Assembly: GCA_024400115.1 (NCBI GenBank)
Contig: JAKSNF010000005.1
Span: 1 to 64,000, forward strand
Direction of reading: 5' to 3'
DNA: 64,000 nucleotides
Source of the DNA: Paludibacteraceae bacterium
Lineage (GTDB): Bacteria; Bacteroidota; Bacteroidia; Bacteroidales; Paludibacteraceae
Position numbers and translations under genes: made by a program. The notes under the pieces are model-generated. The model was given only the letters and a program-made list of their open reading frames with translations, was not told the origin of the DNA and made no database searches. Shown here in pieces: positions 1-62,872 of this stretch; positions within the stretch are counted from its first letter, which is position 1, and the number at the start of each line of letters is the position of its first letter.

Positions 1-181
1 CGTTCATGGGGTTGGTAACCGGAGCTCCCATCGAGTGGATAAGAGCGTACTCTTTGTTAGATCCGTTTTCTGGTTCGTTCTTGGATTCCTTACATCCTGT
101 TAACGCGATGGCGGCGATAGCCATCAGTGCCAAAAATAGTTTTTTCTTAGCCACAAGGGCACGATTAACTTCGTTTTTCAT
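1..181 (-). CDS. Lipoprotein, N-terminal part (tandem paralogue, cut by window edge)
   Basis: This reading frame starts at the ATG whose A is base 181 and stays open to the window edge (about 60 codons seen). The first 30 residues are a lipoprotein signal (basic N-region, LALMAIAAIA core, lipobox LTGC with Cys30) and are nearly identical to those of the next gene upstream, at DNA level too. Its start overlaps that gene's stop by one base (TAATG), so translation is probably coupled. Beyond Cys30 the sequence (KESKNEPENG, then HSMGAPVTNPMN) is only loosely similar to the neighbour. It is probably a second secreted lipoprotein of the same operon, perhaps also a linear amide hydrolase, but the catalytic part is outside the window. 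Confidence 0.75.
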   Translation of the reverse strand, partial: MKNEVNRALVAKKKLFLALMAIAAIALTGCKESKNEPENGSNKEYALIHSMGAPVTNPMN

Positions 182-1533
182 TATAGTTCTTTCTTTAAAT
201 CAATGGTGAACGCATGGGTCATATCATTACGTACATTGAACAACATTGTACGCTGCACAGGATTATATACACACGAGTAGTTGGTTACTTCATCTGGAAA
301 TTCAATGCCATAACAGCCATATTGTAAGCACTTGAGGGCTTGGAACTCATCCATAACGGGTAAATAATTAGACATCATGGCGTGAGCACGGCGTTTGGTA
401 CTGAAGGAATATTGCCAAGCATCCTTCTCATACGTCGAGGCGGCCTCTATGTTGTAATAATAATTCTCCATACTGTTGTACTCATAAGGCACGACCGACT
501 TGGTGTAGAATCCGATTAGTCTCCGTTCTTCTGCGCGGAGCACATAGAGCGAGTCATTCCAATACTCAAATATAGCATTGTCACCGGAGGCATCAGCAAT
601 CATCCAGTGTACATTCAAGTTGAAGTTAAGCGCTGTATAGTCATACTCGTTTTTTAGTTTCTCCTCCACTTCTTTCACCGTAGCGCACTTAGCTAAAATG
701 GTATATACGAAAGCCATTGTGGAAGGCAACTGTTTCAAAGATTTATCTTTCTTCTTATCCTGATTAACAGGGAATGGATTATTCGTACCATCCGGAGCAT
801 CGGGATTCTGGAAAGCCGGCAATTGGAACGTAGTATAAACCAAACCTTTCTCGTTCATACCGTCTAATGTGCAGACCGTGTTAGTCAGCAAAAAATCCAG
901 ATTGCTTGTTCCGTCCAAGAACACGCCGTCTTCGCCATATTTCTTTCCAAACATCGTACCGTTATAGTGCGTGTTGGAAAAAGCCACAAACTTATACTCG
1001 CCCGGTTGGGGATTTTTATGGAACAGTACTACGATATTACCGACCTTACTATCCATATTACGACCTACTAACAATTCGCCCTTGGTGTTTTTGCATACAA
1101 AACCGGAGCAAGCAAGTGGAGAATCGAATAACACAATCGGGTAAGGTGTTTTGAATAACTGATTTTGGAATTCTTTAAGAACTTCGATTCCGGCTGTACC
1201 ATCCCCATATTCGTAGCGTTCGTCACCGGATTTGATTATTGATGCCACAGGGTTTTCAATCAGATAGTCCATGTAATACAAATGGTTTCCATACGCACAC
1301 CTTAAAGACTTCAATGTCTCTTCGGCTTTGGCAGACTTACAGTTTTCTACATTGAGCGGGTTAGGTGATGTCTGCGTATGGGAACGCAGGGCTGTAATCT
1401 CCGTTCCTTCAATGATTGTAGGTCCTACCGGAGTTTCGTCCTTACACCCCGTTAACGCGATGGCGGCTACAGCCATCAGTGCCAAAAATAGTTTTTTCTT
1501 AGCCACAAGGGCACGATTAACTTCGTTTTTCAT
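181..1533 (-). CDS. Lipoprotein of the linear amide C-N hydrolase / choloylglycine hydrolase-like family
   Basis: A 450-residue lipoprotein (lipobox LTGC, Cys30). From about residue 142 it shows the Ntn-hydrolase pattern CSGFVCKNTKGELLVGRNMD: a candidate nucleophile Cys142, with Arg158 and Asp161 in the conserved GRNMD. It then has SNTHYNG and a G-M-N-E-K-G-L segment, as in bile salt hydrolase and penicillin acylase relatives. Family members cleave linear amide bonds of N-acyl amino acids, bile conjugates or acyl-homoserine lactones; the substrate here cannot be read from sequence. The nucleophile is not at residue 2, so a proteolytic cleavage before Cys142 would be needed for a free N-terminal Cys. 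It lies 20 bases behind the beta-helix gene and overlaps the next paralogue. Confidence 0.7.
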   Translation of the reverse strand: MKNEVNRALVAKKKLFLALMAVAAIALTGCKDETPVGPTIIEGTEITALRSHTQTSPNPLNVENCKSAKAEETLKSLRCAYGNHLYYMDYLIENPVASIIKSGDERYEYGDGTAGIEVLKEFQNQLFKTPYPIVLFDSPLACSGFVCKNTKGELLVGRNMDSKVGNIVVLFHKNPQPGEYKFVAFSNTHYNGTMFGKKYGEDGVFLDGTSNLDFLLTNTVCTLDGMNEKGLVYTTFQLPAFQNPDAPDGTNNPFPVNQDKKKDKSLKQLPSTMAFVYTILAKCATVKEVEEKLKNEYDYTALNFNLNVHWMIADASGDNAIFEYWNDSLYVLRAEERRLIGFYTKSVVPYEYNSMENYYYNIEAASTYEKDAWQYSFSTKRRAHAMMSNYLPVMDEFQALKCLQYGCYGIEFPDEVTNYSCVYNPVQRTMLFNVRNDMTHAFTIDLKKEL

Positions 1534-1553
1534 TTGTTTATATTTTAGAATGA

Positions 1554-3188
1554 TTATAGTTTAATACCTAATACGTTATAACGGGTATTATCCTTAATAA
1601 CAAATAGTTGTCCGTTAACCATCACTTTCTTAGCCTTAGTAGCATCTTTATTTGCCTTGGCATTGATAAGTGCGGTACCGGACTGTTTTTTGGTAACGAT
1701 GGTTAATATAGCATCTTCGGTGAGGGTTACAGGAGCAGTAAAAGCTTCGCAATTTTCACCAATGGTATCGTTATTGAGTTTTGCTACTTCAATATAATAG
1801 CCTTTATCTGCCGTTACAGCGAAGATTATCTCTTTGCCTTTAGCTACATGGTAGTCACCGGATGCGATGGTGTCATCATTCATCGTAGCAACTGCATTCT
1901 CATAAGCAGCAACGGTCAGTTTAATAACCTCTTCTGCCTCATAGCAACCTAAATCAATAGCTTTACCTTGGATACGAACATTACCGGCGAGGTCTGTCGG
2001 AAGAGTGTTAGCAGCATCGGAACCAAAGTCAATCAGCTTGCTTCCGTCAACGAGGGTGAAATCACCATTCTCAGGATCAGCAAAACCAGGGTTCTCTTTG
2101 GTCAAAATCAAACTGGTCGTTCCCGTTGCATCATCATCACCTTTTTGACCAATGATAGCATTGTAACTACGTTGACCTTGGGCCTTGTCATATTTAGTGA
2201 GATAGTAAACACCTTGAGGAGCAATGGTATCACCAGTGATGTTTCCCCAAACGATATTGTTAACAAAGAAACTGCCGTTAGCAGACTTATTGTTATTTAC
2301 TTTCACACCGGAAAGAGAAGCTGTTGCACCGACTTTGTCTTGTTTATTACCGACAATCGTACAGTTGATGATATTAGCCAAGTTACCATCCATGCAAAGA
2401 CCGCCCACTTGACCTGTTGCCTCATTGCCGACAATTAAGCAGTTGATAACCGTCGATATATTACCACCAGACAAAAGAACACCACCGGTATCACCATTGG
2501 CTTTGTTGTTGCGAACAATGCAGTTAACCAAATGGCTACCATTGTGCAGTCGAATACCACCGCCGGCATTGTTGGTCGTTTGGTTGTTCTCGATCACGCA
2601 TTTGTAAACAACCACACCTTTACCGTTCACGCGTACACCACCACCGGTGGTAGCCGTGTTGTTCTTGATTATGCAGTTGTAAGCCAGCGTATCAGGATCA
2701 GCAGTACTGCTATTGCTGCTTACGCCACCACCCATAGCATTGCCGGAAGGTACATCAACCACGTTGTTTTGAATTAAACAGTCTTGGACACGACCTTTCA
2801 CGTTCAAGAACACACCGGCAGCACCTTGGTCTGCCAAAGCTGTCGTCAACTTACCATTTTGGATGGTGAAGTTAGACCAAACCGTCAGCGTTGTAAATGC
2901 AGCAGGTTGGTTCAGTACACGACCATCTGCATTTGCATCCAGAATAGTCGCATAGTCTTTTTTAGAAGTGAAGGTCTCATCCCATCCGCCGATGACTTGA
3001 ACGCCTTCTTTCATAGTGAAATTACCGGTGAACGTACCTTCTTGAACCAAGACGGTGTCACCTGCCATTGCCTCAGCGATGGTCGATTTGAGAACTTCTG
3101 CTCCATCAGAGGCGTTTACTTTGTGAACAGTAGCACTTAAGCTACACGCTACCAACATGGTAGCCACACACACGAAAATCTTTTTCAT
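1554..3188 (-). CDS. Secreted parallel beta-helix protein with choice-of-anchor Q-like region and sorting tail
   Basis: 544 residues with a clear signal peptide (MKKIFVCVATMLVACSLSAT). Residues of about 50-400 form repeated short strands such as YNCIIKNNTATTGGGVRVN and LVNCIVRNNKANGDTGGV. These are typical of right-handed beta-helix (pectate-lyase-like) surface proteins. The end of the helix region reads DLAGNVRIQGKAIDLGCYE, like the choice-of-anchor Q domain. The last residues (KVMVNGQLFVIKDNTRYNVL) match a C-terminal tail shared by seven proteins in this window and suggest export through a type IX-like route. No catalytic site is recognisable. It may bind or degrade carbohydrate, or act as an adhesin. 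Confidence 0.8.
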   Translation of the reverse strand: MKKIFVCVATMLVACSLSATVHKVNASDGAEVLKSTIAEAMAGDTVLVQEGTFTGNFTMKEGVQVIGGWDETFTSKKDYATILDANADGRVLNQPAAFTTLTVWSNFTIQNGKLTTALADQGAAGVFLNVKGRVQDCLIQNNVVDVPSGNAMGGGVSSNSSTADPDTLAYNCIIKNNTATTGGGVRVNGKGVVVYKCVIENNQTTNNAGGGIRLHNGSHLVNCIVRNNKANGDTGGVLLSGGNISTVINCLIVGNEATGQVGGLCMDGNLANIINCTIVGNKQDKVGATASLSGVKVNNNKSANGSFFVNNIVWGNITGDTIAPQGVYYLTKYDKAQGQRSYNAIIGQKGDDDATGTTSLILTKENPGFADPENGDFTLVDGSKLIDFGSDAANTLPTDLAGNVRIQGKAIDLGCYEAEEVIKLTVAAYENAVATMNDDTIASGDYHVAKGKEIIFAVTADKGYYIEVAKLNNDTIGENCEAFTAPVTLTEDAILTIVTKKQSGTALINAKANKDATKAKKVMVNGQLFVIKDNTRYNVLGIKL

Positions 3189-3200
3189 AATGTTTGTATT

Positions 3201-3719
3201 TTAGTTTTTTTTGTTGAAACAATATCTCACACCGATAGTCGGGATAAATCCGAATAGTCCCCTCAATGTAGGTGCAACTTTGGATTCATTGACACCCAAG
3301 TTCAACGTCGGTCGGAGGTCAACGGATAACTGAAGCGGGAAATTGAAGGTATAAGCCAAACCTATCTGACCGGTTATACCAAACATGAAGGGTGTTCTTG
3401 GAAAGTCGGCGACGGAAATACCATGACCTGAATAAAAAGGCCAGTCGGTACCTATAAATAGACCGGGACCGGCATAAAACTCCCAATTACCTTGCTCTGT
3501 CCACTTTGGTTGCTTAATGACAAACATATATCTGGCAGAGATATTGTGCCCCATCGCATAATTATAGCCAAGGTCTGTCTCAATGAAGTTTTTACCTACC
3601 GTATGCAGATAGGATAACTGTGCTCCAAAACCCAAGCGTCCACCAATGGCTTTAGGTTGAGCTGTTGCAGCAACAGAAAGCATTGCCGCAACCATAAAAA
3701 TAACTATCTTTTTCATCAT
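3201..3719 (-). CDS. Small outer-membrane beta-barrel protein
   Basis: 172 residues with a cleavable signal (MKKIVIFMVAAMLSVAATAQ) and alternating hydrophobic and aromatic strands ending in YCFNKKN. This is consistent with an eight-strand outer-membrane barrel of the porin/OmpW-like 'outer membrane beta-barrel' group. Its ATG overlaps the stop of the preceding ferredoxin gene (ATGA, four bases), so the two are likely translated together. Function unknown. Confidence 0.65.
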   Translation of the reverse strand: MMKKIVIFMVAAMLSVAATAQPKAIGGRLGFGAQLSYLHTVGKNFIETDLGYNYAMGHNISARYMFVIKQPKWTEQGNWEFYAGPGLFIGTDWPFYSGHGISVADFPRTPFMFGITGQIGLAYTFNFPLQLSVDLRPTLNLGVNESKVAPTLRGLFGFIPTIGVRYCFNKKN

Positions 3720-4495
3720 TTCGTATTATTCTTTGCAGTCTGTTTTGTGTAATGCCATTTGTAACTGATAGCACCCTTGTTGCAACCATTGATACAGTTC
3801 ATACAATCCACGCAACGACTATGGTCTATCTTGTGGTTAGCACTATCAATACAGAAAGCTTTGCATTGTTTTTCGCAAAGACCGCAATTGACACATTTGT
3901 CTTTATCAATAACCAGACAAAAGAGGGAGAAACGGCTGAATAGACTGAGGGCAGTTCCGATAGGGCAGATATTGTTGCACCATGTACGTCCTCCTCTCCA
4001 AGCGAGTACAATAATTACCACAAAAATCACTGCGGATGCGATAAGTATCCAGTTTATCCAAGCCTGAATAGGACCAAACAGGTTACCTAACACAATACTG
4101 AAAATACTGTACGGGGCTATCAGGCAAGCAATCTCGTAAAAACCTAATGCCATACCAACCGCAAAGACGACCAGCATGCCATAACGGAGCCAATAATTCT
4201 CCTTCTTGTAATGATAATTTTTAGTTGCCTTCTTGCTTTTTCCGCCTAACCACGAAACGATGTCTTGAAAAACACCGAGGGGGCAAAGGATGGAACAATA
4301 CACTCTACCGAAAAGAATAGTCAGTACCACCACAGCGACTACCGCAATAAAATTCTTAGCAAGAGCAGACTGCGGCAACTGAAGACCCGGCACCCAACCG
4401 AACCAAGAGTGCAATGCATCTACCGGAGTGAACAAGAGCAGCGTAATCATGATAAAAAAGATAGCTGCTAATACAATTCTAAATTTACGCAACAT
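3716..4495 (-). CDS. Polytopic membrane polyferredoxin (NapH/CcoG-like 4Fe-4S protein)
   Basis: 259 residues with about five membrane segments and two membrane-proximal CxxxCP motifs (CSILCPLGVF, CNNICPIGTA). A C-terminal pair of ferredoxin clusters follows (CVNCGLCEKQCKAFC, CVDCMNCINGCNKG). This is the architecture of NapH and related electron-transfer proteins that pass quinol electrons to a periplasmic or membrane partner. No nap genes are present, so a role in nitrate reduction is not supported; many Bacteroidales carry stand-alone copies. It starts 44 bases behind a small peptide gene and overlaps the beta-barrel gene. Confidence 0.8.
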   Translation of the reverse strand: MLRKFRIVLAAIFFIMITLLLFTPVDALHSWFGWVPGLQLPQSALAKNFIAVVAVVVLTILFGRVYCSILCPLGVFQDIVSWLGGKSKKATKNYHYKKENYWLRYGMLVVFAVGMALGFYEIACLIAPYSIFSIVLGNLFGPIQAWINWILIASAVIFVVIIVLAWRGGRTWCNNICPIGTALSLFSRFSLFCLVIDKDKCVNCGLCEKQCKAFCIDSANHKIDHSRCVDCMNCINGCNKGAISYKWHYTKQTAKNNTK

Positions 4496-4538
4496 AACTT
4501 AAAAATATTTAGTTATTTGTGATGATATGAATTACCAC

Positions 4539-4658
4539 TTATAAGGCATATATCTGTTTATCGCCACGATCGCCTGATTTCAGTCCGCCGGATGTAAGTA
4601 AGATATTAGCGGGATTTATGGCTTCCACATAGATGTGGGGAATGATGTACTTTTTCAT
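4539..4658 (-). CDS. 39-residue MKxY-type small peptide
   Basis: A short frame beginning MKKYIIPHIYVEAINPANIL and continuing for 39 residues. Its ATG overlaps the stop of the 465-residue secreted protein (ATGA), which argues for coupled translation and a real gene. It has no signal peptide or membrane segment. It resembles two other short frames here (25224-25358 and 51945-52085): all begin MK-x-Y or MKHQY, have a Pro near residue 7-8, a hydrophobic V/I patch, then a short Ser/Thr/Gly stretch. Function unknown. Similar short proteins occur widely in Bacteroidales as far as I know. Confidence 0.6.
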   Translation of the reverse strand: MKKYIIPHIYVEAINPANILLTSGGLKSGDRGDKQIYAL

Positions 4659-6052
4659 AATTCTTGTCCTCCTATTGAATATTTTTTACCGTCTAAAATA
4701 ATGACCACTTTGTCCGCATTGAATACCTTTTGGCAATTCGGGGTAGCGGAAGGTTGATTCAAGCGAGTGGCATCGTCGGTTATACTTATCTCTTGCAACT
4801 TGGCAGGCATACCGCGATAGCGCGGAGCCCTGGCAGACATACTCGGGGTTAACCAGAAATAGGCACGGAAGCCCTTCATCATAGCATCAGGGTCATTGCC
4901 ATCGGTTGGCCAGCAGAGTTCATTATTGTTGTATAAGAAGAAATTATAGTGTTCATTCTCACCGTTGGTAACATCCTCTATATGGGTCATACCGAAGAAG
5001 CCCTGATAAGTCAGCGCGTCATCACCCGTTGTGAATGCATCGGTGGCATTTTCGACCCAATTCCATTTTGGGATATCAGGGAATACCAACAAAGGAACGG
5101 AATCGGTATCATCTGTCCAACGAATGAGATAAGGGACACCTCTTTCCATTTTGGGACATTCACCCATTGAGGCTATATTCACATGTAAACAGCCGTCCAC
5201 TACCGTGCCCGATGTTACCGTAAACACTTCGGCGTCCTTAAGAGGAGATTGGATGAAGTCAAACTCAAACGGCAAACAAATCGTATTGAAATAGCCGTTG
5301 TGCAAGAGATAACGACGAACGAAGAGATGATAATGATCATCAAATGTCTTAAAGTCATTAAATTTACTTGCAAACAGTTCCTGACTATCATTCTCGTCAA
5401 ACACCATCACATCCCGCACCAAACGGACGCTGTAATAGTTTTGTTTGCTACCATGATTCTTGTCGTGTATGGCTTCATTGTCAAACCGCAAGCAGTAACC
5501 ATTGCCGCTATCATATTGATCGCGTGCCCAATAAACGCCATGATCATCTTCGTTTACCACATGATGCCCATTATCATCATACGCATATCCACGGCACGGC
5601 AGGAAGATGGCACCTGCGTCTTCCATCTTTTCCCATTGCTCGGCGGTATAGACGTTATTTTCATAGTGAGCACCTTTGGTAACAGGTTGAAACGCCGGAA
5701 CACCTTCCGGTTGTACCCAGTTATCGGGCAGGAGAATCAGTCCCTTTTCACCCATGACTGTACCTAAGGCATCTTTCTGCTCCTTATCTGCATCTCGGGT
5801 AACTATCAGATAGGTCCACTCGTCAGAAGAGAGAACATGATCTTCACCACCGGCATATTTTCCACCATCTTGCCATTGGAAGCGCTCCGTATCAACACCT
5901 GTATTTTTACAATTGGTTGTGGCAAACACAACTGCTTTACCCGGTTCAATGGAGAACACGCCTTTGTAAGAGAATTCTACATCATCCTTAGCGGACACCT
6001 GCTGCGCCACCAGCGTCAGCGAGGTAATAAAGAAAAATAGTTTTTTGAACAT
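4655..6052 (-). CDS. Secreted protein with FISUMP-like N-terminal part and sorting tail
   Basis: 465 residues with signal peptide (MFKKLFFFITSLTLVAQQVSA). The first half (FQWQDGGKYAGG, SSDEWTYLI, GLILLPDNW, GAIFLPCRGYAY, SVRLVRD) follows the plan of FISUMP-like surface domains. The second half (NTICLPFEF, GVPYLIRW, FFLYNNNELCWPTDG, GFRAYFWL) is a beta-rich module also seen in the 472-residue protein at 9411-10829. The end (KVVIILDGKKYSIGGQEL) is the shared tail. It is the first gene of the minus-strand run, behind a promoter at 6269-6298 and a leader of about 210 bases holding GC hairpins. Ligand or substrate unknown. Confidence 0.7.
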   Translation of the reverse strand: MFKKLFFFITSLTLVAQQVSAKDDVEFSYKGVFSIEPGKAVVFATTNCKNTGVDTERFQWQDGGKYAGGEDHVLSSDEWTYLIVTRDADKEQKDALGTVMGEKGLILLPDNWVQPEGVPAFQPVTKGAHYENNVYTAEQWEKMEDAGAIFLPCRGYAYDDNGHHVVNEDDHGVYWARDQYDSGNGYCLRFDNEAIHDKNHGSKQNYYSVRLVRDVMVFDENDSQELFASKFNDFKTFDDHYHLFVRRYLLHNGYFNTICLPFEFDFIQSPLKDAEVFTVTSGTVVDGCLHVNIASMGECPKMERGVPYLIRWTDDTDSVPLLVFPDIPKWNWVENATDAFTTGDDALTYQGFFGMTHIEDVTNGENEHYNFFLYNNNELCWPTDGNDPDAMMKGFRAYFWLTPSMSARAPRYRGMPAKLQEISITDDATRLNQPSATPNCQKVFNADKVVIILDGKKYSIGGQEL

Positions 6053-6063
6053 AATTGTTTAAT

Positions 6064-6104
6064 TGTTTGACACCCCCCGTCCCCCTCGGTAAGGGGGTGT
6101 CGGT
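6064..6104. repeat. GC hairpin in the leader of the 465-residue gene
   Basis: GACACCCCCC pairs with GGGGGTGTC about 20 bases later, with CCCCCTCGG in between. It sits just upstream of the start codon in the transcribed leader (minus strand). Confidence 0.6.
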
Positions 6105-6159
6105 TAATAAATTAGTTTATTGTTATACTTAGTTATATAAGTTGCTTATTATCAACGAA

Positions 6160-6194
6160 TTACCCCCCCCGATTTGTTCGGAGGAGGGGCAATC
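6160..6194. repeat. C8 / GGAGGGG hairpin in leader
   Basis: A run of eight C is followed about 12 bases later by GGAGGAGGGG. The same arrangement recurs at 53646-53680, also in the leader of a minus-strand secreted-protein gene. It could form a hairpin in the transcript. Confidence 0.5.
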
Positions 6195-6268
6195 GTGTGT
6201 CCTTATTTATTATGTCTGCGCCTATGCGTGCGCAAAGAGTGTGTCATATATTTTCCAAATTGCGGGTG

Positions 6269-6298
6269 CAAAGATACATCTATTTTTTCAATTATCAA
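6269..6298 (-). promoter_or_regulatory. Promoter for the 6052-to-1 operon
   Basis: On the minus strand TTG is followed after 19 bases by TATCTTTG, the Bacteroidetes -33/-7 pattern, then CACCC. It lies about 215 bases before the start codon at 6052. Confidence 0.65.
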
Positions 6299-6378
6299 AA
6301 TATTTTCACTATTTTTCATAAAAAAACTTAATTTTGCAAGTAAAACGAAAGAATTTACGCAAATTTTCATCCCAAAAC

Positions 6379-6409
6379 TTGCATATTTCAAAAAAATGTT
6401 GTACCTTTG
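6379..6409 (+). promoter_or_regulatory. Promoter facing the gene-poor interval
   Basis: TTG, 20 bases including ATTTCAAAAAAA, then TACCTTTG followed by CAC. A textbook Bacteroidetes promoter. Only short frames and inverted repeats lie downstream before 6922, so it may drive an RNA or a decayed gene. Confidence 0.65.
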
Positions 6410-6413
6410 CACT

Positions 6414-6537
6414 CGAAAGTTTTGACGTAAGTTTTTACATAGAGTTGCGTGGTAAATGAGATGCCGGATGAACAAATCGACCATCCCTTTGACCAAAGTA
6501 CAACCAACCCAAAAGTACGATTTCCGAGAAACTTTCG
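6414..6537 (+). repeat. Inverted repeat in the transcript start region
   Basis: CGAAAGTTT (6414-6422) and AAACTTTCG (6529-6537) are perfect complements about 106 bases apart. A second pair (CTTATGTAA / TTACGTAAG with a four-base loop) follows at about 6543-6564. It begins about five bases after a strong -7 element, so a folded RNA is possible. Confidence 0.35.
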
Positions 6538-6608
6538 TTAAGACTTATGTAAAGCGTTACGTAAGCCCTTAGTTGAAAAAGTGAGTTAAGGTTTTGATTT
6601 GCTGATAA

Positions 6609-6761
6609 ATGTCAAAAATAAAAATAGAGGTCATCTTTGACTATGTTTTTGACCCAAAAATTAGACCAAAATCTGCTCGATTTTCAACCAAAATTAGACC
6701 AATAAACAACCGTATTTATTCAAAAACTTGTTTTCGTGATGAGGCAAGGATGAAGGATTAA
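6609..6761 (+). pseudogene. Possible remnant of a tyrosine recombinase N-terminus
   Basis: A 50-codon frame starting MSKIKIEVIFDYVFDPKIRP and ending FRDEARMKD. The opening KIKIEVIFD is like the start of the arm-binding domain of many Bacteroidetes phage-type integrases, and the rest could be a worn version of the following strands. No catalytic domain follows. A tRNA 3' fragment lies 100 bases on, the usual neighbour of an integrase. This is inference from a weak match; the frame could also be spurious. Confidence 0.25.
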
Positions 6762-6860
6762 AATGGTTCGAATTTTGATATAAATATCTGAAATTTAGCG
6801 TCTTACAAACTGCAAACACCGCTTGTTAACTAACTGTATATCAGCGATTTGCATATATTC

Positions 6861-6885
6861 GAGGGTTCGAGTCCCTCGGGGGACA
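6861..6885 (+). other. tRNA 3' fragment (T-arm plus acceptor strand)
   Basis: GAGGG TTCGAGT CCCTC is a perfect five-base-pair T-arm with a seven-base loop. It is followed by a seven-base acceptor strand GGGGGAC and an A as discriminator. The matching 5' acceptor (GTCCCCC), D-arm and anticodon arm are absent upstream, so this is not a complete tRNA. Such fragments are what integrating elements leave at att sites in tRNA 3' ends. Confidence 0.6.
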
Positions 6886-6887
6886 CA

Positions 6888-6915
6888 AAAGAGAAGGTTA
6901 AACTTCTCTTTTTTG
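6888..6915 (+). terminator. Rho-independent terminator behind the tRNA fragment
   Basis: AGAGAAG, loop GTTAAA, CTTCTCT, then a run of T. It ends just before the start codon of the CDF transporter gene at 6922. Confidence 0.75.
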
Positions 6916-6921
6916 TATATC

Positions 6922-7821
6922 ATGGCACAAACACGCGAAAAACAAATGCAGACGGTCACCCTCTGGGGTGGAATAGTCAATCTCCTGCTCTCCGTTCTTA
7001 AACTCTTAGCCGGTATCTTCGGCATGAGTGCGGCAATGGTGGCCGACGCTATTCACTCGCTCTCCGATTTGGTGAGCGATGTCGTGGTTCTTATTATGGT
7101 TCGCATTGCCGGACAAGGACCCGACAAAAGTCACGATAGCGGACACGGTAAGTTCGAGACATTGGCCAGTCTTATCGTTGCAGGACTGCTCTTAGCGGTC
7201 GGTATCCGCCTTATGATTGAAGGCGTAGAGAAGATTCGCTTTATCGCTGCCGGCGGAGATGTGGCACAGCCGGAATGGATAGCCCTTCTGGCTGCAGTGG
7301 TATCCATCTTAGCCAAAGAAGGATTATACCAATGGACTCATCGTGTAGGCAAAAAACTAAAGAGTCAGGTCATGGAAGCCAATGCTTGGCACCATCGCAG
7401 TGATGCCCTCTCGTCCGTTGGTTCGCTCATCGGTATTGGCGGTGCGATGTGGCTCGGAGGTAAATGGGTGATGCTCGACCCTATCGTTTGCTGTATCATC
7501 AGTGTGCTCATTATCGTTATGGCCGTGAAGATGCTGATTCCTGCCGCCAAAGAACTGACCGAAGCCTCGCTTAGCGACGAGGAGGAAGATGTTATTTTAG
7601 GTATTGTCAAGTCCGTTTCGGAGGTGGAGGATGTACACGAACTCAAGACCCGTCGGTCGGGCCCCTATGTGATCATTAGTTTGCACTTAGTGGTGGATGA
7701 AAAGATGACGGTGCTGCAAGCCCATGATATAACGGTAGAAATAGAGAACCGCCTTCGTGAGGCATTAGGGCAAGATACACAAATAACCATTCATGTCGAA
7801 CCCGACAAAGAGGCAGAGTAG
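6922..7821 (+). CDS. Cation diffusion facilitator family transporter
   Basis: 299 residues. An open extension upstream to 6823 runs through the tRNA fragment and terminator, so the ATG at 6922 (MAQTREKQ) is preferred. Membrane helices carry the metal-site motifs HSLSDLVSD (His45, Asp49) in helix 2 and HHRSDALSS (His-x3-Asp) in helix 5. A cytoplasmic C-terminal domain of about 85 residues follows (VEDVHELKTRRSG, ISLHLVVD), as in YiiP/FieF exporters. It should export Zn, Fe, Mn or a similar divalent cation in exchange for protons. It converges on folC with a six-base gap. Confidence 0.9.
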   Translation: MAQTREKQMQTVTLWGGIVNLLLSVLKLLAGIFGMSAAMVADAIHSLSDLVSDVVVLIMVRIAGQGPDKSHDSGHGKFETLASLIVAGLLLAVGIRLMIEGVEKIRFIAAGGDVAQPEWIALLAAVVSILAKEGLYQWTHRVGKKLKSQVMEANAWHHRSDALSSVGSLIGIGGAMWLGGKWVMLDPIVCCIISVLIIVMAVKMLIPAAKELTEASLSDEEEDVILGIVKSVSEVEDVHELKTRRSGPYVIISLHLVVDEKMTVLQAHDITVEIENRLREALGQDTQITIHVEPDKEAE

Positions 7822-7827
7822 GGGAGT

Positions 7828-9213
7828 TTAGAGAATGGCAAGCGCCTCGCCTACGACATAATTACTGCCTCCGATGAAGATGATATCATCGGGGGTGGTG
7901 TTTTTTATGGCGGCAGCGATGGCTTCTGAGACTGAGGGGTAGGGGAGTAGAGGAGTAGAGGAGTAGGGGGGGAGGGGAGTAGGGCATATGGTAGCAAACA
8001 TTTTTGCGAGGTCTTCTGCCGGAATAGCGCGATGGGTCTTGGCTTGGGTGAAATAATAGGTGGCGTTGGTGGGTAACATGCGGAGCATGACGTCCACGTC
8101 TTTGTCGTTGACAAAGCCGAGGATTAAGTGGAGAGTGGAGAGTGTAGAGTGTAGAGTTGCCGTCTGGTTGCGACCTTCGGTCGATAGTGTAGAGTTTAGG
8201 GACTGTAGTTGTTCGCAGACGTAGCGGAAGCCGTGGCTGTTGTGACCGGTGTCGAGAATGAAGTGACGGTTATGAGCGTAGATCGTTTCCCATCGTCCAC
8301 GCAGACCCGTGCTCGTACACACGTGCGCGAATCCTTCTTTTATAGCGCGTGTAGGCACACCTAACTGACGTAGTGCCACATAAGCCGTCTGTTTGTTATG
8401 CTCTTGGTAGATGCCCTGTAGTTCACATTCGGTTATATCGCGTTCCCGACAATGACGAAGGTAACCGCATTGGTCGGCAAACCAGAGGCGGCAGTCGGTT
8501 GTTTCGAGACCGTGTCCCCAAATACCGCACTCTTTGGCTTTGTCTATGAAGACAGGTGCCGTCTCGGGATGTGTCTCGCCAATGACGCAAGGAACGTTCG
8601 GTTTGATGATACCGGCTTTCTCGAAGGCAATCTTAGCAAGAGTGTCGCCTAAGAACTCCTCGTGGTCAAGACCGATATTGGTAATCACGCTCAAACGGGG
8701 GGTGATGATATTAGTGGCATCCAGTCTGCCGCCTAACCCAACCTCAATGACCGCTATATCGACTTGCTGTTTAGCGAAATAATCGAAGGCAAGAGCCATG
8801 GTTGTTTCAAAGAAAGAGGGGTGTATCTCGTCCAAGAAAGCCTTATGTTCCGTCACAAATGCCGCAACTGATTCCTGCGGAATCATTGTGTCATTTGGGG
8901 AGTAGGGGGGTAGGGGAGTAGAGGAGTAGGGGCGAAGTATTCGGATGCGTTCGCGGAAATCGACGAGGTGGGGGGAAGTGTATAGTCCCACTTTATAACC
9001 GGCGGCTTGGAGCGAAGCGGCGATGAGGTGAGAGGTAGAACCCTTGCCGTTGGTACCGGCTATGTGTACGCAAGGAAAAGACTGATAGGGGTGTCCCAAT
9101 CGATCCATGAGGCGCAGGGTGTTCTCCAAATCCGGCTTATAAGCCTGACTGCCGACGAGGTGAAACGCCGGCATCGAGGCATAAAGATATGTGATAGCTT
9201 CGCTGTAAGTCAT
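7828..9213 (-). CDS. folC: Folylpolyglutamate synthase / dihydrofolate synthase
   Basis: 461 residues. Mur-ligase-type ATP site HIAGTNGKGSTSHLIA near residue 50, then TSPHLVDFRERI, ALAFDYFAKQQVDIAVIEVGLGGRLDATN and NIGLDHEEFLG; the C-terminal domain has LDTGHNSHG and LGFVNDKDVD. It adds glutamate to dihydropteroate/folate in the cytoplasm. It is longer than usual because of three in-frame low-complexity inserts coded by short tandem repeats: PYSSTPLPPYS after RERIRIL, LNSTLSTEGRNQTATLHSTLST after CEQLQS, and PTPLPPYSSTPLLPYP before SVSEAI. All three fall at positions where the family has short surface loops. A GGTGAGA tandem array sits just upstream of the start. Confidence 0.95.
   Translation of the reverse strand: MTYSEAITYLYASMPAFHLVGSQAYKPDLENTLRLMDRLGHPYQSFPCVHIAGTNGKGSTSHLIAASLQAAGYKVGLYTSPHLVDFRERIRILRPYSSTPLPPYSPNDTMIPQESVAAFVTEHKAFLDEIHPSFFETTMALAFDYFAKQQVDIAVIEVGLGGRLDATNIITPRLSVITNIGLDHEEFLGDTLAKIAFEKAGIIKPNVPCVIGETHPETAPVFIDKAKECGIWGHGLETTDCRLWFADQCGYLRHCRERDITECELQGIYQEHNKQTAYVALRQLGVPTRAIKEGFAHVCTSTGLRGRWETIYAHNRHFILDTGHNSHGFRYVCEQLQSLNSTLSTEGRNQTATLHSTLSTLHLILGFVNDKDVDVMLRMLPTNATYYFTQAKTHRAIPAEDLAKMFATICPTPLPPYSSTPLLPYPSVSEAIAAAIKNTTPDDIIFIGGSNYVVGEALAIL
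7934..7984. repeat. In-frame GTAGGGGA-type tandem repeat in folC
   Basis: Units of GTAGAGGA / GTAGGGGA with about eight-base period. Read on the minus strand it codes PTPLPPYSSTPLLPYP in the third folC insert. Confidence 0.85.
8128..8201. repeat. Composite repeat in folC: AGAGTGT units around a GC hairpin module
   Basis: Seven-base units (AGTGTAG, AGAGTGG) flank a 28-base module at 8159-8186 whose core GCGACCTTCGGTCG contains a perfect hairpin. The same module, with one base changed, is in hisS at 45619-45646 with the same kind of flanks. It codes LSTEGRNQTATLHSTLST. Confidence 0.9.
8897..8932. repeat. In-frame GTAGGGGA-type tandem repeat in folC
   Basis: Tandem GTAGGGG/GTAGAGGA units coding the PYSSTPLPPYSPN insert (minus strand). 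Confidence 0.85.
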
Positions 9214-9216
9214 ATT

Positions 9217-9282
9217 GGTGAGAGGTGAGAGGTGAGAGGTGAGAGGTGAGAGGACGGCGCAAGCGCCTACAGGGTAGAGGGG
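9217..9282. repeat. GGTGAGA array with hairpin upstream of folC
   Basis: Five tandem copies of GGTGAGA (9217-9253), then the palindrome GGCGCAAGCGCC and GGGTAGAGG. It starts four bases before the folC start codon (minus strand), so it lies in the folC leader. Confidence 0.85.
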
Positions 9283-9410
9283 TGTTTATGGTCTTTTACG
9301 TGGTGACATGGCACTATTTTGGTGAGCACCGCTATTCCCGATTGTGAAACAGAGGCTCGTTCCTATCAGTAAATCTACCTCTTTAGTTTTGGGTTGAAAA
9401 TATACGTTTC

Positions 9411-10829
9411 TCATTTTACTCGTTGTCCAAAAAGATTTAACATATAGCCATTGCACTCGATTATCAATTGACCATCCCTTATGATTTTGTGCGCCCGAAG
9501 GGCTATTGTGGATTGTGGATTATCGGTGGTTACAGAAGGAGACGTTATCACCATACGCGGAGCGAAAGTGAGCAAGGGAGCTTGCCCTCCTTGTGGAGGA
9601 TTGACCTTAAAGAACGCACGCAAACTATACATTTCACTATTATCTCCGTCTGCAGGCCAAACTAACTCATCGTTTGGATAAAGAAAGAGATAGTTCTTAT
9701 TACCCGATTCTAAGTGAGTGCGGTCAAGCAAACCACAGAACTGTACCAAATCGCTTTCAACACCTGCAACGCACTCTTCGTTGGTTGATACTTGGATGAC
9801 GCGGTCGTAGAAATGCATATTATTCACCGCTTGCGTAGGGGTAATAAGATAGGGTACGCCTGCTTTGATCGAGGTTTTCTCCACGAGATTAACAGCAAAT
9901 GTTTGCGCTTCAACATCGATTGAACCGGTTTCGTTTGTGTTGAGTTGCAGTAGTTGATAGCCCTTGCCAAAGATGGCTTCCATTTCTTCCGTTGCTATAT
10001 CAAACGGCAGGGTCAGCGTGTTACTCATGCCGGGTGTTAGGGTGCGCTCTACGTGTACATTGATGGGCAGCCCCGTGCCTTGTTGGGGCTTATATTTCGT
10101 TAACTCTGTGGAGTTGTTATTTCTATCGGAAACATTCACCCACGCTTGCGTATCATACACTAAGCGGACACTCATTTTTAGTTTACGATTAGCATTTCCC
10201 TCTAACTCAAATTCCGGATTTGTTGCAGTCATTTTATAGGCTTCGGCCGATTTGTCATAATCCCCGCTCGAAGTCGATGCCCAATAATAACCGGCAGTGT
10301 TTGCTTCGGATATATCTGTTGCTTCTATACTTATCTGTCCCGCTGCGGGCAAGAAGAGGAAATGTTCCTTGTCTTCTGCCATTACTTTTAGTCCCGGCTG
10401 TCCTTCAAGGGTTGTCCATTCATGACCATGGTGCTCCAATAGGTATGTCCACTCGTCTCTTGTCAGCGTTCGCCATAGACCGGGGGTATTGCCGCCGTTG
10501 CTAATGGCATTATACACGCCCCAATCGAAATTGGTATAAAGAGAGGTGCCGCCAATCGAGGCGAAGTGGATTCCTTTCCCTACGCTAATCGTATCGGGGT
10601 CACCATATCCGGAGGTGCCCCAACCGAAATACGATCCCTTGTCATATTGGTGTTCCGCGAACGACCATGTGTTGCCTTCGTGAAGGAGGTTGCCTTGTGA
10701 GAAATAGACTTGTTTGGTGGCTGAGATAGAGAATAGTCCTTCTATTGCTCCCGTTGGCGTATTAGCCAGAGCCACCACCGATAGGGGGAGAAGTAATAGG
10801 ATTAAACCCTTATTGAATTTCCGCTCCAT
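9411..10829 (-). CDS. Secreted FISUMP-like protein with sorting tail
   Basis: The ATG at 10829 (MERKFNKGLILLLLPLSVVA) gives a proper signal peptide. A longer frame upstream would lie inside the giant gene, which this start already overlaps by 20 bases. 472 residues: FSISATKQVYFSQGNL, YFGWGTSG, WRTLTRDEWTYLLEH, LFLPAAGQI and YYWASTSSG are the recurrent strands of FISUMP-type modules. A second beta module (MSNTLTLPFDI, AGVPYLITP, YLFLYPNDELVWPADG, RAFFKV) is shared with the 465-residue protein at 4655-6052. The tail is KIIRDGQLIIECNGYMLNLF. It probably acts at the cell surface together with the giant protein. Confidence 0.7.
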   Translation of the reverse strand: MERKFNKGLILLLLPLSVVALANTPTGAIEGLFSISATKQVYFSQGNLLHEGNTWSFAEHQYDKGSYFGWGTSGYGDPDTISVGKGIHFASIGGTSLYTNFDWGVYNAISNGGNTPGLWRTLTRDEWTYLLEHHGHEWTTLEGQPGLKVMAEDKEHFLFLPAAGQISIEATDISEANTAGYYWASTSSGDYDKSAEAYKMTATNPEFELEGNANRKLKMSVRLVYDTQAWVNVSDRNNNSTELTKYKPQQGTGLPINVHVERTLTPGMSNTLTLPFDIATEEMEAIFGKGYQLLQLNTNETGSIDVEAQTFAVNLVEKTSIKAGVPYLITPTQAVNNMHFYDRVIQVSTNEECVAGVESDLVQFCGLLDRTHLESGNKNYLFLYPNDELVWPADGDNSEMYSLRAFFKVNPPQGGQAPLLTFAPRMVITSPSVTTDNPQSTIALRAHKIIRDGQLIIECNGYMLNLFGQRVK

Positions 10830-13800
10830 ATGCATTAAATGTTTTGCCGTTGTGGTTGATATATAAGATACCATTTTTGATGAATTTAGTATTATGACTT
10901 TCGATTCCTGATTTTTGACCATCAACTGAATCTAAAGCGGAGTCGTCTCCCATCTGTATGATGTACGGTTCAGCTATCGTGCCAATCATAGCGTCCTCGA
11001 CGTAGGTGAGGGTGTTTGGTGATTGGTGGATGGTGGATGGTGAATTATCAGTTGCGACCTTAATGGTTAACAGTTCGGTCTTATCACCCGGGATAGTGAG
11101 GAACCATAAACCTTCTTCCGCAAAGGCAGAAGCACGACACTCGTCACCGGCAAAGATTCCCACTTCGGCATTCGTCACCACTTGGTCGCCGTCTAAAACG
11201 ACCGCTGTTACCGTCATGTTACCCGGATACTTACCCGGATCAACGGGAGTGAATTGAGAGTTGAATCGCTTCGCTGAATGATTGCCAGTTGGGCTAATGG
11301 ATGAATTGATGATTGGAGCAGCATTGCGAGCAATAGACGGGTAATAAAGGGTCATGTCCTCCGTTCCCGTGTTGCAATAGAGATAAGCATTACCCGGGCT
11401 GAGGAACTGTAGCGGTCCTACCCATTGGAAACCATCCCACGTAGCAAAGTCCGTTTGCGCTTTGATGACATCACCCTTGGTTGGATTGATACCAGCCAAA
11501 GCGGTATTGATATCCAAACTCATCTGCGGCAAATAACCAATCCAACTCCAACTGTTATTCCCCTTCAATGGGATACCATAGTAAACAGGATTGATGATAT
11601 TACCTGTAACCGTCTTGGTGTAAGGTTTGCTCACATTCAGTTTATATCCCTTGAAGCAGTCAATCACTTTGAGCGAACCCTGTAACGAATCGCGGATGGC
11701 GGAGAGTTGCGCAAACTCTGTAAAGGACTTGATGATAGTAATATCACCTATCATATCCTTTAATACCGAATTGATATTGACTTCGTCGGGTAGTACGTTG
11801 AAGCTAATCCAGTTCCAACCTTTTTGTAATTGGAGTGTCTGCTCCGATATATGACCGGCTTTGAGATGAATCGGATCCTCCATACTACCAATCAACTTGC
11901 CGCCCATGAAATTGAGGGTGTTTGGTGTTTGGTGATTGGTGGATGGTAGTGTTATTTGGATGTTCGAGTATATCAATCCCGTACTGGCATCCCAATACTT
12001 AAACGTGACGGGCTTGGAAAGACTGAGACCGTAATTGATACTATCTTTTTCCGCTTGAGTCAGGTTAGCATAGATATTCATCATAATATAATGTCGTCCG
12101 TATGAGCTATACAAGCGTGGCGAACCTAATCCAGCTAACTCGTTCCCGATAAACGCAGCCACAAGATCTTCGCTATCGTCCGCAACAGCGTTGTTAATCA
12201 TCGCTGTCGCAATGATATTCATTGAGTATTCGTAGTCGGCAGGGCGAATCGTCCAGTTAGGTTTCTCGCCGTTGACACGAATGGTTAGTTGCAGCGGATC
12301 CCTCACGGTCTCATTGCCTACCAAATAAATGGTTTGTTCATAATTACCTATCGCCAGCGAGGCTTGAATAGTGGCGGTCAGTTCTTTCTTTTGAAGCGGT
12401 TGTAAAATACCACTGGTCTCACTGAAGACGAGCCAAGCAGGCGCATTCAAGATATACCAGTTCTCAACCTTACCACTGTTGTTAGCAATGGAGATAGTGA
12501 CGGTGGTATCCTTTAGAGCGGTCTTTGTCACTTTCATCATTTCTTCACCCCACAGCAGTTGGTTGCGATTGACATACGTTGTCCAATGGATCGGGGTGGA
12601 ATAGTTCCCGTGTTCATCAACTAGATCCGTTACCTCAAACTCAAGCGTGCAGCCCTCGATACGTGCAGCGGGTTCGGTGATGTTTATCACGAGGCGTTGT
12701 GCAGACGGTGTGTAGGTGTGCTTAACTTCCTCAACGGGACGTTGCTTGGTTAGAGCGGGCGAAGTAGTGGAGGTGGGTAGAGGAGTAGAGGAGTAGAGGA
12801 GTAAAGAGTGTTGGCTTACACGGTCTTCAAGGGAGAGGAGTTTGATGGGTTGCAATGCTTCATCCACCGTATCTTTTTCCATCGGGTAGTAAGCCACTAA
12901 ACCTGCCTCGTCGCCCTTGAGTTCGTTGCGGCGATTGAGAGTGATGTTTTGGGGCATTATATACGCATTCCACAGGCGCACCTCGTCCAATCCTACTTCG
13001 GTCTCGGACTCTTCGGATGAGAAGATGATAGAGCTTGAAGCAAAGGCAGGCATCTCTTCTATACCAGTGACATCCAGTATCTGCCCGTCAATCATAAAGA
13101 TAGGTAGGGTGTTGTGTCGATAGTTGATTGCCAAATGGTGCCAAGCGCCATTGACTACACGTCCGGGAGCCGTGACGACTTTTGTCTCGTTATTAATCGT
13201 GAGGAGCATACAGTTAACGCTAAATCCGATACTGAGGGACGAGTCGCTTAGGGTCATGAGTGTTCCATCTTGTGTCATACGGAACCAGCACTCGAACACA
13301 AAGTCCTCTTTGGCAGGGATAGAACACTCGCTAAGATCCATCTTCACGGTCTGTGAGGCAGGAATAGCGAGAGCTATATTGTTGTTGTTATAGTACCACG
13401 AGTTTATGGGCAGTTTTAGGTTCCTGCCACGAACAATATCGCGTGCCTCAAACCCTTCGCCCTCGTCCATAGGCCAATAGGAGAGTAATCCATCGGTATA
13501 GGAGTCTTTGCGTTTCTTACGCTCGCTAAGCGATGTGCTCCAATCTCTATCAATCGTCCAGATAGCCAAGTCATGCATCTTACATTGGTTAAAACCACCA
13601 ACGAGCAGATTAGACCGTATATCATATTTGGGTACGCGGATGTGGTCAAAGAGGCAGACTTCATAACTATCGTATGCGCAATGGGCGGTCAGTGTACTCC
13701 AACCATCGTTGTCTAAGTCTGCTTCATATTGGATGGAGATAAAGCACCAAGTGTTTTGAGGGATGGTGTCTTGTGAGCGTTGCTGATAATTGCCGAGTTC

Positions 13801-16800
13801 AACCCCAAGTCGTCCTTTCGTGACAGCCAAAATAAATCCTAACCCTGTTTCGCTTGCGTGCGCTAAGATTATTCCGTCGTTCTGATAATTATACCAGAAC
13901 TCGAAGGTGAGGTTTGTGTTATTGAAGTTATACTCTGCTTCGCTTCTTGCGCAAGCTTCATCTATCTGAAGCGCTACAGCATGGCCGTCCACATCGTGTG
14001 CATTGAGGACACCTTTGACGGAGATGTTCTTATCGCGAATGCGTCCCATCTGAACGGGTTTATTGAAATCGACATAGATTTGGTTATCCGATGTGTAGAT
14101 GCCATTAATCGGGCTTGGCAGTCCGAGTGCCACAGGGCGCAACATGTCTTTAACAACCGACACAATGTCGCTTTCGTTTGGTATCTCCTCATTTCCGAAG
14201 GTACAAGCCGTTACGGCACGGAACTCGTACTCGCCATCAGGGAATTGGGTATCCGTCATCTCCAAGGTGTAGTAGATAGCCGGTCCGTCAATAAGGGTCT
14301 TTTGTCCACCTACGGTATCGGCTGGATTAGCGCAGAACTCACGAATCAGATGCCAATCGTTCTCTGATGTTTGTCGATACTGCAAGCGGATAGACTTGAA
14401 GTTACGGAAGTTACGGTCATAGTTATCTATGGTAACTGCGAGTTTATTCCCCGTTGTGGTATTGATGGTGGTGTTATCGATGCGAATATGCACATCCGAA
14501 CAGGTAGGAACGAAATGAGCCGATAACCAAACCGTATCGGCATTTTGGAAGGATGAGCAGTCCGAAGATAAGATAACCGCCAAACTGTCATAATCGAGTA
14601 CACCCAGATCGGTTTGCGTGACAACTAAGGTCTTGACGATGGGTTGAGAGGGATAGAACTTAATCAGTCGTCCTGCGTCGGTTAAGAGTGAGCCATCAAC
14701 GGAGATCTGTGCTCCTAATGGGTTATGGTCTCCGGCAGCATAGAGCTTGAGCCATGTGAAGTAGTTCTTATCCACATCAGCTGTATTGGCTAAGGTAAGC
14801 GTGTATATCGCTTTCCCGCCGATAGGCACATCAGTAATAGTTGTTTGCTCTGCTCGTATCTGCGGCTCTTCCATGCTCACGGTAGCGGTATGTAGTTCAT
14901 GTTCTCCGGGTTCGAAGTACTTGGTGCGTTCCTCGCCTTCATAGGGGCAATAGGTCTGTCCACCACGGGTAGAGAAGATAGGACCAAAACCATCGGCTGC
15001 GGCATAGACATCAACTGACATATATTCGTAGTCATTGATGTTTAATGTGTATTCAACGGTTGAGACTTTAGTCTTCGTGGTGTTTTCCTCGTAATTATGG
15101 TTATAACCGGCATAAATCTCATTCTCGAACGATACGCCAACGGTGTTGAAGTGAACTCCTGTGTTTTTCTTAATGGATATTCTACATCCATCTTGTTCAT
15201 GGAAGGAGTCTCCGCTTCCGGTAGTGCGCGAACGAGACGAGCTAACAACGGCGCCTCCACCCAAGGATAGGTTCTCAATCAGCCACCCTCCGGTGTAATA
15301 GTCCAATGCGTTATAGAGAGCAGTATCAATATTGTTTTTCTTGACTTCTTCTTCCAGTTCTTTTCGTTCGTCAGGGTCTAAGGACGGATTGGCGAGTTTA
15401 TCGTGATAATAGCGCACATGAGTGGCTTTTTTACAACTCTCTTCCCACGCTGTCCAATCAACCTTAGAACTGGAGTGATGGACAAACATTTTGCTTCGTT
15501 CATTATTGGCAAGGATGTTCTTCCAACGGTTGACTTGGTTATTGAAATGGCATACCTCATCGGAATATCCCTGCACGCTATCGGGGGTTGTGGAGGGCAA
15601 TATCATGATATAACTGGGTCCTCCCAACGAATCCATAGGAGTAGCTTTTGCTCCCCAGATAGTCTTATCGCTATTATCTGTTCCGTAACCATAATCGCCC
15701 TCTTTGAGGCAGGTGATATAGATAGGTTCTGTGGTGAAGTTAGGATAGTTCGTCGAATAGGAGGCAGGATCTACATATTGGAGTAGGGCATTGCGCTCCT
15801 TAATGTAATTAGGAATAACCCAATTCTCTATATCCATTGTGGTATAATTGAATGAGGTTGTAAAAACAGAACCGGTAGCGATGACATCCTTAACGACAAT
15901 CTTATACTTACGCGGGTTGTCCTGGATACGTTCCAAATCTACCTTGCGGGCATTTCCGAATGTCCTATTCGTTCCCGAACCAATAAACACATCGCCGGGT
16001 GTTCCTACGAAGGGATATTCGGACTTAGTAGAGATGGTTTGTGTGGTGGTGCTTTCAATATTACTGGTGTTGGTCCATAAGGAAGAACCGGTATAGATTT
16101 GACCGCTACCGATATTGTTTTCGTTTGTTATTGCCGAGAACTGCATAATGCCAACGCCTGCACCGATGTATTCGGCAAAGCCCAAGCAAAACAGTTCCGT
16201 GTTATCCGTACCTCGGTTCTGCTCATGCGAAGTGGTAATGGTGGTGGACACGCTCTCGCCCGATGACCATGAGGCATAAGACTTGCCTCCGGGTGGGTCA
16301 CGCAGAACAAAGAGTAGTTGGTCGGGGCCATCGGTAACGAAATTAGTACCCGAGGTGCGGGCACCGAAGATGAGTCCCTTAAACTTGCCGTTCTCACTCC
16401 ACGAATAGACACGCGAATGGTCGGGCGTTTCGTAGTTGATATTGACATTGTAAGTATAGGGTTCTACTATATTCGGTTCAGCAACCATAAAGGAGTATGC
16501 CGCTTGTCCTACAGAGTCAAGTAGGACTTGGTTCTGCGCCAAAGAGATAATCTGACCTGCCACCACTAACGAACTGTCTCCCTTTTCGTCCACTGAATAA
16601 CCATCTTCACCGGCTACCTCTTTGTCTCCTAACTCGTTCTCAATAGTGACAATGGCGTTCCTCAAGGGTTGATAATATGCGATGGGTTCGTTGCCATCGT
16701 AATTGACATAGGTCTCAAACGCGTTGATCGTCCATGCGTAGGTTTTGTTTTGTATAAAACACGGCACATCTAAGGTATAGACCGGCTCTTGTGCTTCAAT

Positions 16801-62823: not shown

Positions 62824-62872
62824 CCGAGGGACAGATTTGACTGCTTGCAACCCTCCCTAAACAAATGCTAAA

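Follow-up and report, generated by a model that had tools for sequence, protein, structure and literature searches.

A tRNA-Lys 3′ fragment as the probable right attachment site of an integrated element in a Paludibacteraceae genome

The DNA analysed here, a stretch of 64,000 nucleotides (the window), is contig C45, starting at its base 1, of the genome of a gut bacterium of the Paludibacteraceae (G000; 2.14 Mb in 60 contigs). It most probably contains attR, the right junction of an element integrated into the 3′ end of a tRNA-Lys(CTT) gene by a tyrosine integrase encoded beside the left junction, attL, on another contig, C22 (probability about 0.85). The tRNA 3′ fragment noticed in a first-pass annotation is real, and the main interpretation, that it is an attR with its attL and integrase elsewhere in the same genome, is right. 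An otherwise unexplained tRNA scrap thereby becomes a mobile element with a known target, an integrase, arm sites and a testable switch. The element is ordinary in kind; of interest are its pairing with a sister element at tRNA-Asp and its conserved promoter-leader end. Among the matches listed from open-licence PMC papers, none deals with such elements in Paludibacteraceae. Comparisons within the genus were made over 178 genomes, including G000, G017, G053, G107 and G119. The features around the junction, in window positions, are as follows.

6379–6410, + strand: promoter-like site directed outward, to the core (TTGCATA..TACCTTTGC); same consensus in the same place at five element ends
6411–6564, + strand: conserved leader; helix 6414–6423 with 6528–6537, hairpin 6545–6552 with 6557–6564
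6609–6761, + strand: 50-aa frame beginning MSKIKIEVIFD, overlapping the arm-type sites
6661–6671, + strand: putative arm-type site TTAGACCAAAA, identical to the middle C22 repeat
6683–6693, + strand: possible degenerate third arm site TTCAACCAAAA, in register; weak, with a rank figure of 55 (at least 54 11-mers score higher or equal)
6694–6704, + strand: putative arm-type site TTAGACCAATA
6859–6892, + strand: attR core; its 34 bp match exactly the tRNA-Lys(CTT) 3′ end on C22 plus the bases that follow it there
6887–6912, + strand: terminator-like hairpin, taken from a comparison of relatives as the native tRNA-Lys terminator displaced to attR

The T-arm (GAGGG-TTCGAGT-CCCTC, 6861–6877), the 3′ strand of the acceptor stem (GGGGGAC, 6878–6884) and the discriminator A (6885) are all present. 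The rest of the tRNA is missing, as had been noticed: ARAGORN finds no complete tRNA in the window, and at gathering scores the sole Rfam match in the whole window is a SAM-II riboswitch elsewhere (62821–62881, 48.9 bits). A permissive Rfam scan of 6300–6950 returned a sub-threshold match to the T-arm of tmRNA at 6860–6877 (13.8 bits, E 0.0019, gathering score 47). A 70-base stretch around the fragment occurs at two places in G000, itself and C22:1864–1897 on the minus strand (34 bases, 100%, E 2.1e-11), the latter being the 3′ end of a complete tRNA-Lys(CTT). Such an exact 34-base match puts the fragment far beyond chance. The first-pass annotation had expected a tRNA with this 3′ end and the acceptor sequence GTCCCCC; the tRNA exists on C22, but its 5′ strand reads GTCTCCC, with a G-U pair. 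With a genomic tRNA of the same 3′ end in existence and no complete tRNA recognised in the window, both points on which that annotation had staked its reading fell in its favour.

On C22 the complete tRNA-Lys(CTT) is followed by an intact integrase frame, with its ATG 204 bp on from the first base of the core.

G000:C22 119–1693, same strand as the tRNA-Lys: tyrosine integrase, 524 aa; Phage_integrase 5.7e-16 (Pfam), phrog_1 1.8e-34

A restored tRNA and an intact integrase frame bear out the earlier reading of the fragment as a scar left by integration of an element at the 3′ end of a tRNA gene. That reading had left open whether the element was later lost or continues elsewhere, and the tRNA and integrase on C22 fit the latter better than the former. 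The R, H and Y motif residues of the integrase are present, with Lys in place of the box II Arg: box II reads YSLKDTG, as against YSLRDTG in most of the related integrases compared, and Lys is also found in the tRNA-Gln integrases and in the G017 copy. At E 1e-65 this integrase occurs only in G000 (two copies) and G017 among the 178 genomes. A tRNA gene (Lys, Asp, Gln, Ser, Thr, His or Leu) was present at 22 of 30 fetched integrase loci (15/16 and 7/14 in two subsets), versus 2 of 23 control loci chosen for a cation efflux (CDF) gene. Searching IMG/VR with the integrase query gave zero matches, and a search of GTDB contigs gave one locus, in a Paludibacteraceae MAG from horse faeces. The best matches in a phage collection are integrases of Porphyromonas phages (33–36% identity over the catalytic part). 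At most 55% of the query is covered in the listed matches, and as far as one gene of the related G017 element shows, the phage core is not shared: its packaging-type ATPase has no match in the same collection. NBU1, a mobilisable Bacteroides element in the 3′ end of a tRNA-Leu gene (listed among the references of PMC8138268), is likewise from Bacteroidota and likewise combines a tyrosine integrase with a tRNA 3′ end as target, although the target here is tRNA-Lys.

Between the tRNA and the integrase gene on C22 lie three tandem 11-bp repeats, CTAGACCAAAT-TTAGACCAAAA-TTAGACCAGTT. When a matrix built from these three repeats alone was used to rank all 127,980 11-mers on both strands of the window, the sites at 6661 and 6694 came first and second. 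Both are on the + strand, less than 200 bp from the core and 33 bp (three repeat lengths) apart. The plain 8-mer TTAGACCA is mildly enriched, with four copies in the window versus 1.57 expected and at least four in 10 of 100 shuffles; as this count tells little, weight is placed on matrix rank and position. The tRNA, integrase and arm repeats of C22, together with the matching sites in the window, identify by sequence the C22 junction as attL and the window junction as attR. The frame at 6609–6761 does exist, at 50 aa, and had been suggested to be a possible recombinase remnant. Pfam gives nothing for it at E 0.01, and the two best arm-repeat matches of the window lie in it, so the remnant was rejected and the segment is better regarded as putative arm-site DNA of the integrase. 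Binding of the integrase to the window and C22 repeats is predicted from this pattern. Like the tyrosine recombinases with arm-binding domains described in PMC8138268, the C22 integrase has a catalytic domain and an N-terminal part, with arm-like repeats near both junctions, from which its N-terminal part would be expected to read the arms; it differs from them in its box II sequence.

G000 carries a second integrase of this type on contig C4, 68% identical to that of C22 over 512 residues, which follows a tRNA-Asp and is accompanied by the repeat motif TAGAACA. Identity between the two is 48 and 55% in the first two 60-column blocks and 87 and 88% in columns 300–420; the arm motif differs along with the integrase N-terminus. 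These sister elements at tRNA-Lys and tRNA-Asp in one genome, whose right ends agree at 98.5% over 459 bp, offer a natural comparison for a change of arm specificity. A third integrase, in G017, also follows a tRNA-Asp, and both ends of its element lie on one contig, 49 kb apart: the end at 83470 has the whole tRNA and that at 34385 only the tRNA 3′ end. Two junctions bounding one continuous stretch are thus seen for the G017 sister element, where G000 has a contig gap. On contig C24 of G000 (L126), three successive tRNA-Asp 3′ pieces, the last degenerate, are found at about 790–1030, followed by a remnant of attL-type arm repeats; nearly the same array is present in G053, and that on C24 has the appearance of scars of repeated integration.

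The native terminator of the tRNA is taken to be displaced. The fragment is closed by a terminator-like hairpin, as the first-pass annotation had it, with 10 pairs followed by a T run (one found versus 0.6 expected in the 700 bases scanned). The tRNA-Lys(CTT) is linked to its 5′-side gene in 17 of 29 fetched loci of other genomes, and that gene is present in 54 of 61 genomes. Among 18 fetched loci with the tRNA near this gene, 16 were testable after exclusion of L047, which is without 3′ flank, and of that of G000 itself. A terminator-like hairpin occurs within 70 nt past the tRNA-Lys in all 16 testable relatives and past the window fragment, and none occurs past the C22 tRNA, by an ad hoc rule of our own that also fires on 96 of 960 random 70-mers from tRNA-Lys loci. 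By sequence, then, the integrase gene is co-directional with a tRNA-Lys whose native terminator has been displaced. In the tRNA-Asp set, the two tRNAs with an integrase have no terminator-like hairpin, and one is present at the intact tRNAs of G051 and G119 and at the fragments of G017, G119 and C24 (a further G051 locus at a contig end, L114, duplicates the flank of L118 and was left out). The hairpin after the G017 attR is nearly that after the intact tRNA-Asp of G119.

The empty tRNA-Lys site was sought through homologues of the CDF gene next to attR on the chromosome side, the nearest of which is 65% identical to that of the window, and also by way of the gene 5′ of the tRNA. It was seen in no relative; tRNA-Lys was at none of the CDF loci checked (23 of 30, then four more). 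G051 and G017 each have the 5′-side gene and a CDF gene on a single contig, separated by about 27.5 and 93.5 kb, but the gene order there is not what a simple junction would give. This inverted arrangement was set aside because the CDF gene is not a conserved neighbour of the tRNA.

The element side of attR ends in a promoter-like site and a leader. The promoter at 6379–6410, which had been noted upstream of the 50-aa frame, fits what we take to be the Bacteroidetes-type consensus. Matches to this consensus number 14 in the window against a mean of 0.8 and a maximum of 3 in 30 first-order Markov controls, and the motif, being common here, is not diagnostic by itself. An outward promoter, TTGCATA..TACCTTTGCAC, is common to five ends, those of the window, C24, G017, G119 and G053. 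Window positions 6103–6561 are 98.5% identical to C24:95–553 (459 bp) and 5977–6068 are 95.7% identical to C24:1–92; past the shared stretch, C24 runs into its tRNA-Asp 3′ fragments. Both can be aligned with the right ends of G017, G119 and G053, of which that of G119 is 97% identical to that of G017 over 513 bp. Downstream of the leader the Lys and Asp ends diverge, each bearing the arm motif of its own integrase type. A pattern made from the 3′ part of the leader occurs at five places in four of the 178 genomes (a reversed control pattern gave no match), and all five adjoin tRNA 3′ fragments. The leader folds at −35.2 kcal/mol (z −2.77) in the window and has no match to known RNA families in Rfam, including the permissive scan of 6300–6950.

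Is this segment a structured leader RNA or a small protein gene? The latter is possible but less likely. In G017 and G119, a GTG shortly after the promoter opens a frame of about 78 codons, and the window and C24 have a common frame of 34–41 codons with some silent differences, but the homologous long frame is interrupted by stops in both G000 copies. In the two helices, 98.6% of cells over four distinct sequences can pair, against at most 51.4% when the strands are slid. With two pairs changed on both sides and 26 of 500 shuffles doing equally well, this covariation is only suggestive of a conserved structure.

The arrangement suggests the following model. The intact tRNA on C22 would owe its 3′ end to the element, while the original chromosomal 3′ end, with the terminator, would have been pushed to the window site. 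At each junction the integrase would bind the 11-bp arm sites lying toward the element, and so bridge the two. In the integrated state the integrase gene would lie behind the tRNA promoter with the native terminator gone, and would be read from that promoter. In the excised circle, the promoter at 6379–6410 would read across attP into the integrase gene, the ATG of which would by arithmetic be about 650 nt away. The integrase gene would thus switch promoters between the integrated and the circular state.

Such a switch has a precedent. In ICEKp1, int is read from the tRNA promoter when the element is integrated and from a far-end promoter when it is excised, and ICEKp1, ICEclc and ICEEc1 are reported as proteobacterial conjugative elements in which the switch was tested by RT-PCR, 5′ RACE and reporters (PMC13023037). 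By sequence, the present element resembles ICEKp1 in targeting a tRNA 3′ end, in an int gene that adjoins the tRNA and is co-directional with it, and in having the displaced native terminator and a putative outward promoter at the far end. It differs in belonging to a Bacteroidota genome and another integrase lineage, in being known from sequence alone, and in showing no conjugation genes over the part covered. Of the G017 element, 20 proteins (part of its frames) were scanned, and none matched relaxase or type IV secretion families in Pfam at the cut-off, the weak TraG_N match in that element scoring 18.2 bits against a cut-off of 36.1. Bacteroidota, this likeness suggests, may also use the kind of integrase promoter switch known from proteobacterial ICEs.

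How do the two junctions of G000 belong together? No contig joins C22 to C45, both of which end in or near repeats. C22 and C4 both end about 120 bp past the integrase gene in sequence that is 95% identical, and the start of C24 falls inside sequence common to C45. These four contig ends would be accounted for if the assembler had merged two elements that share a body. Since the contigs end at shared sequence with an assembly gap between them, it is only by inference that C22 is joined to C45, and we take the element to be probably contiguous across this gap. A different account is that a deletion or inversion has removed or broken up the element; the window fragment would then be an old attR, cut off on its left from the element on C22. 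Besides the missing bridge, this account can point to the absence from the G000 assembly of the virus-like genes sought there (see below) and to degraded forms of such elements: in G119 (C1 40001–60000, L125, at 8279–10987) a tRNA-Asp and an attR are 2.6 kb apart, with no integrase frame of at least 80 aa between them. The frames that do lie there, of 398 and 192 aa, look to us RloA/RloB-like, and the locus may be a minimal or deleted element. Against an old, split scar, the integrase frame, the restored tRNA and the arm sites at both ends of the G000 element are all intact and the four contigs break off at the points expected from such a merger, so that we consider it unlikely. An origin of the fragment as a tRNA pseudogene, or by segmental copying of a tRNA 3′ end without a recombinase, is highly improbable, for although the successive tRNA-Asp pieces at the end of C24 indicate that tRNA scraps accumulate near such sites, identity ends where the core is expected, arm sites flank the fragment and right ends are conserved at five tRNA fragments.

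The interior of the integrated element can be viewed only through its sisters, which contribute a virus-like module with related contigs in IMG/VR. The module is located at G017:C1 36754–71302 and G053:C223 3–15616, with relatives in other genomes of the genus and in IMG/VR. In G053 it lies on the contig that extends 39 kb to the left of a tRNA-Asp attR, with its genes arranged as in G017 (62–100% identity in the 21 protein pairs listed, of which two are probably chance frames). Nearest attR, as in the window, come large proteins in a block, secreted or surface-bound by their appearance. The module encodes a 235-aa P-loop ATPase conserved in relatives (phrog terminase-like, 2.3e-8), a collagen-containing fibre-like protein, a 223-aa protein and a number of small proteins that seem to have membrane segments. 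The G017 element further encodes the R subunit of a type I restriction system and a polymerase of the Y family. The ATPase is present in 8 of 178 genomes, including G017, G053 and G107. It has no match in the G000 assembly, where the element interior is missing, and a primase-like protein was likewise absent when that genome was searched, with no positive control. As single queries against IMG/VR neither the ATPase nor the 223-aa protein gave a confirmed match; an alignment of the ATPase found five loci there, on contigs that hold related modules. Against PDB, the ATPase profile matches only the P-loop regions of many ATPases.

For the 223-aa family, the best profile match in PDB is an unrelated enzyme at E 0.88, with no capsid match by sequence. 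The predicted model of an IMG/VR homologue (pLDDT 70.5) appears jelly-roll-like. Foldseek found no PDB structure at E 0.001 or better for it and 10 matches in BFVD with low TM-scores, and by VIA-align it scored best with STIV (Z 6.6), followed by the FLiP capsid and PRD1 P3 (both 5.5), tied with unrelated, non-viral folds. The sister elements thus resemble, as modelled, the tailless jelly-roll-capsid viruses described in PMC5894146 in having a short packaging-type ATPase, small proteins with membrane segments and a jelly-roll-like homologue of the 223-aa protein; they differ in the weakness of the fold match, in the lack of a capsid match by sequence and in that the module was not found in G000. 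The element of the window may be a provirus with its core unassembled, a derivative without the core, or something else. A more speculative proposal, which we put forward tentatively, as one that may well prove wrong, is that the right end seen in the window belongs to a provirus, one of a so far undescribed family of viruses, tailless and with jelly-roll capsids, that infect gut Paludibacteraceae. Such a provirus would carry surface-protein cargo by attR, would swap tRNA targets by exchanging the integrase N-terminus and arm sites on a shared body, and would have a promoter-leader end through which int is strongly read only in the circle.

The genes around attR in the window are as follows.

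1–6858, strand not assigned: element side of attR; 5977–6561 repeated at a second attR (C24), further left by position only
181–1533, − strand: CBAH-family (linear amide C-N hydrolase) lipoprotein-like; PF02275 2.6e-13
1554–3188, − strand: right-handed beta-helix protein; PF13229 1.2e-10
3201–3719, − strand: 172-aa protein with no Pfam match
3716–4495, − strand: 4Fe-4S ferredoxin-type, NapH-like; Fer4_5 1.3e-19, TIGR02163 below cut-off
4655–6052, − strand: 465-aa protein of a genus-wide family, weakly FISUMP-like below curated cut-offs; first gene inside the element end
6922–7821, + strand: gene for cation efflux (CDF), the first beyond attR toward the chromosome; PF01545 2.3e-45

Probably all of 1–6858 is element DNA, membership of the four genes between 181 and 4495 being given by position only. 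The surface-protein gene at 4655–6052 was considered as a marker of the element and discarded, its family being present in 158 of the 178 genomes. Near the left end of the contig, a 96-bp direct repeat (87–182 and 1439–1534, 95.8% identical) coincides with the ends of two hydrolase-like genes that encode the signal peptides. Three giant proteins are encoded close to attR sites, in each case toward the chromosome; they measure 3167, 3051 and at least 2257 aa (window 10810–20313, C24 (L126) 1576–10731 and G053:C223 41238–48011, respectively) and are mutually 25–45% identical.
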